DNA of 40,773 bases from the NCBI RefSeq assembly GCF_027484545.1, contig NZ_JAIXST010000044.1:1-40773 (forward strand), written 5' to 3'. Shown one piece after another: positions 568 through 1,536 of this stretch. The notes beneath the pieces were generated by a model. That model was given only the letters and a program-made list of their open reading frames with translations, did not search any database and was not told the DNA's origin. Position 1 is the stretch's first letter. The number at the start of each line of letters is the position of its first letter. This DNA is from Runella sp. GTDB lineage: Bacteria; Bacteroidota; Bacteroidia; Cytophagales; Spirosomataceae. A program made the position numbers and the translations under genes.

Positions 568-615
568 ATGAAATCTATCCGAATCGCTGCGTGTTGTTGC
601 TGTTTTCATTACTAA
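568..615 (+). CDS. Poly-cysteine leader peptide upstream of cysE
   Basis: A 15-codon ORF reads MKSIRIAACCCCFHY, with four consecutive Cys codons (TGT TGT TGC TGT, 592-603) and stop TAA at 613-615. It lies between the AtuA-like gene and cysE, ahead of a terminator hairpin (662-683). Four Cys codons in a row in so short an ORF, before the gene for the committed step of cysteine synthesis, is the architecture of ribosome-mediated attenuation: stalling on Cys codons when Cys-tRNA is scarce would favour read-through. No Shine-Dalgarno is visible, which is normal here. Translation is inferred, not shown. Confidence 0.72.
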   Translation: MKSIRIAACCCCFHY

Positions 616-620
616 GCGAT

Positions 621-692
621 GGAAGGGGGAAATGTATTCATCGAAATCAAGAAATTGAGGCGCCCTTTCCCGCAAGAAAGGGCTTATTTTTG
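621..692 (+). promoter_or_regulatory. Cysteine-responsive attenuator: antiterminator strand plus terminator hairpin
   Basis: The terminator is a perfect 8-bp stem, GCCCTTTC (662-669) with GAAAGGGC (676-683), a 6-nt loop and the tail TTATTTTT. Just after the leader stop, the G/A-rich strand 621-632 can pair with its 5' arm: GGGAAA (627-632) with TTTCCC (666-671), or GGAAGGG (621-627) with 664-670 through a bulge. A ribosome stalled at 592-603 would leave 621-632 free and antiterminate; one reaching the stop at 613-615 would cover part of it and allow termination. The tail also contains TATTTTTGC (685-693), a possible -7 box for a secondary cysE promoter. Confidence 0.65.
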
Positions 693-708
693 CAATCCAA
701 CCAATGCC

Positions 709-1536
709 ATGACTTTAACTGAACAAGATTTATCTATCCCTTTTTTCGAGCGTCTTGCAGAACAAAACAGGCGTTATCAGTACCGACTTCCTTCCCGCAA
801 TGATGTTGGGAAATTTGTGGAAGAAATCATGTGCTTTTTGTTTCCAATTACCCAAGACTGCGGGAATTCTTCGACGGACTTGCCCGAAGCATATCAGCGA
901 CTGCAAAAACGTCTTTTGTGTTTGTTGGAACCCTTAAACGTAAATCTGGAAACGGGTAAAATTGCGGTTGCTGAGCAGTTTTTGACGCAACTCCCAACCA
1001 TATACGAAAATCTTTTGCTGGATGCGCAGGCCATTACCGACAATGATCCTGCTTCGATTGGGATTGAAGAAGTAATCGCTGTGTATCCGGGTTTTTATGC
1101 TATTGCTGTGTATCGGTTAGCCCATGCCTTGGTAGATTTGGGCGTCCCGCTTCTCCCGCGGATGCTCACGGAACACGCTCATGGACTGACGGGGATTGAT
1201 ATTCATCCGAAAGCCAATATTGGACAATCGTTTTTTATTGACCACGGGACAGGAGTAGTGATTGGGGAAACCACCGACATTGGTAATAATGTTAAAGTGT
1301 ATCAGGGGGTTACTTTGGGGGCACTGAGCGTTTCTAAATCGTTGGCAGAGACCAAACGCCACCCTACGATTGAAAATAACGTGGTGATTTATGCCAATGC
1401 GACTATTCTGGGCGGTAAAACCGTCATTGGAAATGATTCCATCATTGGCGGAAATGCGTGGCTAACTGCAAGTGTACCTCCTTTCTCGCAAGTCTATCAC
1501 CAGAGTGACATCAAAATTCGGCAAACAAGTTTATAA
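709..1536 (+). CDS. cysE: Serine O-acetyltransferase
   Basis: Makes O-acetylserine from serine and acetyl-CoA, the committed step of cysteine synthesis in the cytoplasm. The 275-residue product has the alpha-helical SATase N-terminal domain (about 1-150) and a left-handed beta-helix of hexapeptide repeats from about residue 160 ([11 protein letters not shown], then [15 protein letters not shown]). Asp178 and His179 are the expected catalytic pair. The frame is open to an ATG at 619, but that would place the terminator hairpin inside the gene and add a non-conserved extension, so the ATG at 709 is chosen. Regulation is likely through the poly-Cys leader upstream. It has the longer, Bacteroidota-style SAT length. 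Next gene is convergent. Confidence 0.9.

Follow-up and report, generated by a model that had tools for sequence, protein, structure and literature searches.

In the leaders of the trp, his and leu operons, protector, antiterminator and terminator helices can form, and the position of the ribosome decides between them. For cysteine, Canestrari et al. in 2020 reportedly described poly-Cys leader ORFs at actinobacterial cys genes, and a comparative study of attenuation, said to have been published by Lopatovskaya et al. in 2010, could hold related predictions. The available part of one report describes poly-Cys leader ORFs before cys genes of mycobacteria and other actinobacteria, with no conserved terminator hairpin and with Rho suggested for the mycobacterial ones (PMC1262725); that of another describes the uORFC-8-2 motif, found at cysS in Rhodobacterales, for which ribosome-mediated attenuation by charged tRNA-Cys was predicted (PMC8632094). 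A report on Flavobacterium psychrophilum, which belongs to the same phylum as the organism studied here, gives leader-peptide candidates and clues to attenuation before amino-acid operons, and in its available part names no cysE and no Cys leader (PMC9723704).

Here we analyzed a stretch of 40,773 nucleotides of Runella sp. (contig NZ_JAIXST010000044.1; hereafter the window), in which a short ORF with four consecutive Cys codons precedes a cysE gene. The locus has the same three helices as the trp, his and leu attenuators, with the ribosome position presumably deciding among them, but it concerns Cys, cysE and Bacteroidota, and protection in Runella looks weak when no ribosome is present. It shares with uORFC-8-2 a leader ORF with tandem Cys codons, stems and a terminal U-run, whereas uORFC-8-2, as far as the available text of that report goes, has two tandem Cys codons and belongs to alphaproteobacteria and to cysS, a tRNA synthetase gene (PMC8632094); the gene here encodes a serine O-acetyltransferase and thus lies outside the location that defines that motif. 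With the actinobacterial leaders it shares a run of Cys codons in a short ORF before cysteine-synthesis genes and, unlike those leaders as the available part of the report describes them, it has an intrinsic terminator and an antiterminator strand (PMC1262725). We estimate a probability of roughly 0.87 that this is a ribosome-mediated transcription attenuator which would link cysE expression to charged tRNA-Cys. It would be a device of known type, a well-supported prediction from sequence and folding models on a gene and in a phylum for which the open-licence text of PubMed Central yielded no description of a cysE attenuator.

Arrangement of the cysE leader

The features from 520 onward lie on the forward strand. 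Downstream of a gene for an AtuA ferredoxin-like domain protein (181-503) there is a probable promoter region (520-557), with GAACCTTTTTGCACGGTTTTTA at 520-541 and TATAAA at 552-557, the latter 18 nt 3' of the TTGCAC in the promoter block. The leader ORF, MKSIRIAACCCCFHY (568-615), runs from the ATG at 568-570 over 15 codons to the TAA at 613-615; an in-frame ATG at 543 is a second possible start and would give a 23-codon ORF. Its four consecutive Cys codons, TGT TGT TGC TGT (592-603), form the proposed stalling site. The 3' end of this run opens a putative protector hairpin (helix 1:2; 603-625), in which TTTTCAT at 603-609 pairs with ATGGAAG at 619-625. Region 2, the candidate antiterminator strand ATGGAAGGGGGAAA (619-632), includes the G-rich strand GGAAGGGGGAAA at 621-632 and is complementary to the 5' arm of an intrinsic terminator (662-692), which consists of a stem-loop at 662-683 (8 pairs, loop of 6) and the tail TTATTTTTG at 684-692. 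The serine O-acetyltransferase gene (cysE/epsC) occupies 709-1536. Its product narrowly passes the NCBIfam EpsC serine O-acetyltransferase model (151.2; cut-off 150) and matches the Pfam hexapeptide repeat; the best model is TIGR01172 cysE, yet the score of 159.6 is below the cut-off of 210.65. By this assignment the gene belongs to the pathway of the leader's amino acid, as the attenuator class requires. A sequence-only reading of this stretch had already named the leader ORF, the four Cys codons, the stop, the G/A strand, the 8-bp hairpin with its T-tail and cysE at 709, and had every coordinate right; the covarying protector hairpin, which it did not name, is by our alignment a part of the putative device.

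Under the proposed mechanism, transcription would start near the conserved block and a ribosome would translate the 15-codon leader. When charged Cys-tRNA is scarce, this ribosome would stall on 592-603 and cover the 5' strand of the 1:2 hairpin, so that region 2 (619-632) could pair with the 5' arm of the terminator (from 662) and polymerase would continue into cysE. With plentiful Cys-tRNA, the ribosome would reach the stop at 613-615 and cover much of region 2, so that the terminator (662-692) would form and transcription would end near 690.

To place this arrangement in its genome, we looked at other runs of Cys codons. The pattern (TGY)4 occurs at 63 places across the 7.1-Mb Runella sp. 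genome, and 61 of these were examined; they contain 21 listed CCCC ORFs of 6-45 codons, with 20 different stops, among which the cysE leader alone is followed by a terminator (at least 6 pairs, within 130 nt), and no second four-Cys attenuator was found at the 61 places by this measure. A strict scan for a Cys-run ORF followed by a terminator, run over every fetched locus (1,773,160 bases with each strand counted separately), returned 21 cases in cysE upstream regions (15 without duplicate loci) and 2 elsewhere, in DNA that was chosen for a match to cysE, to a poly-Cys string or to another query and is not a random genome sample. No Rfam model, and hence no T-box (Cys) riboswitch, matched the window at gathering score, and 28 loci of relatives gave no T-box-type match at E up to 1.

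Conservation within the genus

All 13 genomes of the genus have cysE, and in 10 of them it is preceded by a leader ORF with four or five Cys codons, a stop, a G-rich strand and a terminator, the last at the matching place in each of the ten. The alignment that the sequence-only reading had called for thus shows, within the genus, that Cys codons, frame, stop and terminator have been kept together in most genomes. The Cys run is preceded, at a distance of exactly 8 codons, by an ATG or GTG start in 8 of the 10 leaders; in the other two, from Runella zeae and Runella sp. MFBS21, the run has five Cys codons and the ATG lies 11 codons 5' of it (MTFLYCIFAVG-CCCCC-LVL and MISLYSVSAVG-CCCCC-LVV). In all ten, 21-24 nt separate the beginning of the Cys run from the stop, and the T-run comes 67-73 nt past the stop. 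The peptide of the window is MKSIRIAA-CCCC-FHY; MKTKRAAV-CCCC-IRD occurs in four genomes, and MNIKPAAG-CCCC-FLC, METIRTFA-CCCC-FIR and MKTATLLV-CCCC-IFR once each, with a GTG start in two of the peptide types. Comparing five clade representatives by nucleotide, we found Cys codons 2-4 and the stop invariant, Cys codon 1 varying at its third base alone and the start varying only between ATG and GTG, while most of the remaining leader nucleotides differ in 4-8 of the 10 pairs. Such a pattern is expected of a presumably translated ORF under selection for its Cys codons, although selection on the DNA or RNA of the Cys block is not fully separable from it because codons 2-4 show no synonymous change.

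All 13 genus loci have the promoter block, GAACCTTTTTGCACGGTTTTTG, with no more than one position changed, and in 12 of them, L013 being the exception, TATAAA comes next at the 18-nt spacing. At up to three mismatches the block occurs at a single place in the 7.1-Mb genome. Three genomes, G002, G006 and G009 (loci L005, L006 and L013), have kept the block close to cysE and lack both leader and terminator, indicating that the leader forms a module of its own between the promoter and the gene. R. defluvii is among the relatives without the leader. In a genome of another genus (G019), a similar block lies 13 nt before the ATG at the start of cysE. Since the block stays near cysE in the leaderless loci and has this counterpart in G019, it is probably the cysE promoter, and the terminator probably lies within the transcript that begins there.

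A second cysE-like gene (L014-L017), about 50-60% identical and with no poly-Cys leader, is present in four genomes of the genus (G002, G003, G006 and G011). In G002 and G006, the first copy lacks the leader as well.

Predicted pairing and ribosome position

We considered three helices, the protector 1:2, the antiterminator 2:3 and the terminator 3:4, in an alignment of ten sequences (A2). For the protector, 77.6% of alignment cells were paired (shuffles: 64.0, sd 2.5) with a covariation score of 0.400 (shuffles: 0.159, sd 0.036), and neither value was reached in any of 500 shuffles; both also exceed those of six slid versions. These values are to be read with the register of 1:2 in mind, which was derived from three of the same ten related sequences and so favors this helix, and related sequences may exceed shuffles without any structure. 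The antiterminator paired in 84.4% of cells, with no covariation beyond shuffles in this alignment; the terminator, which is nearly invariant, likewise gave none beyond shuffles in a test in which an alignment gap (column 76) displaced the helix.

Next, we folded the RNA up to the terminator loop after removing the nucleotides behind the edge of the ribosome, using footprints of +12, +15 and +18 nt counted after the first base of the A-site codon. At +15, the ten Runella leaders had 4.0-8.5 expected antiterminator pairs with the ribosome on a Cys codon vs. 0.3-5.6 with the ribosome at the stop; with no ribosome, 3.2-8.4 pairs were still predicted, which sets these leaders apart from a tightly controlled attenuator of the textbook type, and the protector is predicted to be weak in competition with 2:3. 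The predicted pairing therefore changes with ribosome position in the direction that the sequence-only reading had proposed. Its finer claim, that stalling at 592-603 leaves 621-632 open and that reaching the stop masks it, held in its first half, the stalled window copy having 8.4-8.5 antiterminator pairs; the masking is complete at +18 (0.3 pairs) and incomplete at +12 (6.1) and +15 (5.6). As a control, the stretch between Cys run and terminator was shuffled 200 times per leader. The real drop was reached by 35, 11, 29 and 3 shuffles in L001-L004, where L001 is the window, and by 0, 0, 10, 2, 3 and 1 shuffles in L007-L012. A ribosome-dependent antiterminator is thus clearly predicted in most relatives and weakly in L003 and in the window copy, which ranks among the weakest for predicted switching. 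In full-length equilibrium folding the terminator was favored at any ribosome position, except partly in L007, implying that the switch must depend on the order of co-transcriptional folding.

Related arrangements in other Bacteroidota

The family has 146 genomes with a cysE match; we fetched 86 cysE upstream regions from it, 85 of which were long enough (300 nt; L227 was too short). Leaders were found at 10 of 13 loci in Runella (g1), at 1 of 2 in genus g27 and, with at least three Cys codons, at 8 of 9 in the sister genus g17, where the ninth reads CCS; outside these three genera none was found at the 61 remaining loci, and none at the 22 cysE loci examined from other families of the order (47 places listed). 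By these loci, the control of cysE proposed "in this lineage" is not general in Cytophagales.

All nine g17 loci have a hairpin of 5-6 pairs and a run of at least 8 T after the ORF, and L214 alone among the g17 leaders passes a stricter terminator scan. Seven g17 leaders were folded: at +15, the stalled ribosome left 3.2-7.5 antiterminator pairs and the ribosome at the stop 0.3-2.8 in five leaders and 5.4 in L185; in L212, a ribosome at the stop covers the terminator arm itself. The real drop was reached by 45 (L185), 25 (L197), 18 (L205), 21 (L210), 6 (L211) and 2 (L214) of 200 shuffles, and because the drops are so often matched, g17 is the weaker evidence. The leader ORF reads through the terminator in two of the nine (L213 and L220) and stops 10 nt before it in a third; in genome G038 the stop adjoins the terminator arm, which misfits the model. 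By these sequences and foldings, the sister genus has a related, less regular version of the putative device. Cys-run ORFs at L042, L065, L096 and L100, without a terminator in the strict scan, were judged to be chance occurrences, and L141 was excluded from the good cases.

A second group with the complete arrangement, apparently linked to Bacteroidales, emerged farther away in the phylum. In the family of G640, the genome of L044, where 14 of 59 genomes had a cysE match, L293 (MILKVTINSCCCFCKLFRKAGLLL) and L295 (MIKWEKMNCCCCFCYHLTERVLFFHC) are complete and 11 loci lack a leader; at both complete loci a cysK-like gene, recognized by eye, comes next downstream. L295 belongs to genome G644, in whose order a cysE match was found in 22 of 198 genomes (L310 is the same place as L295); L311 (MLKRIVKHMFCCCMASQTGLCFDLYD) and L322 are complete there in addition to L295. 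The strict scan overlooked the terminator of L311, whose stem has one mismatch and which folds at -17.0 kcal/mol. Folding of the four complete loci gave, at +15, 4.9-9.8 pairs when stalled vs. 0.0-0.8 at the stop, and 0.5, 1.0, 2.8 and 8.9 antiterminator pairs with no ribosome; 2, 0, 3 and 1 of 200 shuffles reached the real drop. The leader ATG of L293, L295 and L311 lies 4 nt past TAnnTTTG, which we take to be the -7 promoter element of Bacteroidota, suggesting that these poly-Cys ORFs may be nearly leaderless; in 1,836,298 fetched bases, strands counted apart, there are 77 cases of this box with an ATG 3-6 nt downstream. A Cys-rich ORF at L316 has no terminator in the strict scan, and Cys-run ORFs at L312, L319 and L326, also without one, were judged to be chance. 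At the remaining locus of the G640 family, L282/L044 (PLNT01000016.1), a leader ORF with eight Cys codons (MQHSKIYNILTCNNILCCYCCCCIC) stands before cysE and a cysK-like gene; no terminator was found after it.

Searching 395 genomes of the phylum with a gapped pattern, which does not match the window's own leader, gave 13 matches, among which only that in Runella G001 is a leader; L303, L304 and L307 were examined and judged not to be leaders, and the remaining matches were judged from the matched letters alone.

We also observed a conserved element of about 40 nt, TGTTG...TTCCnCAnnnYGGGGnnnnATTCYACTA, before cysE at 39 aligned loci (A1) from genera g3, g5, g9, g17, g19, g27 and g30, mostly outside ORFs with a start (for example L187:166-212, reverse strand, and L200:468-514, forward strand). 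As a structured RNA it was rejected: RNAalifold gave almost no structure, in an extraction that included two wrong places, and there was no relevant Rfam match. It is likely a DNA operator. Weaker matches to the A1 model lie upstream of an apparent operon for an ECF sigma factor and phytoene desaturase and of an aconitase-like gene (genes recognized by eye), and the operator is possibly common to cysteine and carotenoid genes.

Alternative explanations

Could an ordinary terminator, which would either serve the AtuA-domain gene upstream or act as a constitutive dampener, stand by chance next to a poly-Cys ORF while cysE is controlled otherwise, for example by a DNA-binding regulator? Hairpins of terminator type mean little when taken alone (2 were found in 2 kb, with about 1.7 expected), and other genera of the family do have a different, operator-like element conserved before cysE. 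However, 10 of 13 genomes have kept Cys codons, frame and stop along with the terminator. In the DNA examined, this combination seldom occurs anywhere but in cysE leaders, and it is found again at cysE in the Bacteroidales-linked group. The conserved block precedes the terminator and, in the loci that have no leader, lies near cysE. We therefore regard a chance association as improbable.

An alternative of similarly low probability is a translated regulatory leader that acts in another mode, through Rho-dependent or translational control, nascent-peptide arrest or general translation speed rather than Cys-tRNA. The eight-Cys leader at L044/L282, with no terminator found, would suit such a mode, as would the mycobacterial poly-Cys leaders, which in the available part of the report have no conserved terminator and for which Rho is suggested (PMC1262725); against it, ten Runella leaders and four Bacteroidales-linked ones have a terminator with a T-run, and conservation of the peptide does not extend beyond the Cys run, which argues against sequence-specific arrest. 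It is least probable of all, and very nearly negligible, that cysE begins at the ATG at 619 and that the hairpin falls within the coding sequence of a 30-residue extension: the cysE frame is indeed open upstream as far as this ATG, but in 3 of 10 Runella loci it is closed 12, 54 and 63 nt before the cysE ATG, and only 2 of the 10 have an in-frame ATG near 619.

Discussion

The cysE locus of Runella sp. combines an ORF with codons for the amino acid of its pathway, a terminator before the gene, a predicted antiterminator strand and a predicted protector helix, as expected of an attenuator that responds to charged tRNA-Cys. The conserved parts and the predicted shift in pairing support control of cysE by stalling at Cys codons, and on this mechanism the sequence-only reading was most likely right. 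As to its wider history, the odds seem about even that poly-Cys attenuation of cysE is recurrent, gained and lost across Bacteroidota, with near-leaderless ORFs at 3 of the 4 complete loci of the Bacteroidales-linked group paralleling the leaderless poly-Cys ORFs of mycobacteria.

The locus would provide a concrete cysteine sensor at cysE that can be put to the test, in a phylum, Bacteroidota, in which leader-peptide attenuation has already been noted, according to the available part of that report (PMC9723704). A natural comparison is available in the relatives whose promoter block has no leader after it, and the occurrence of the same parts in two distant groups makes it possible to test common origin against convergence.
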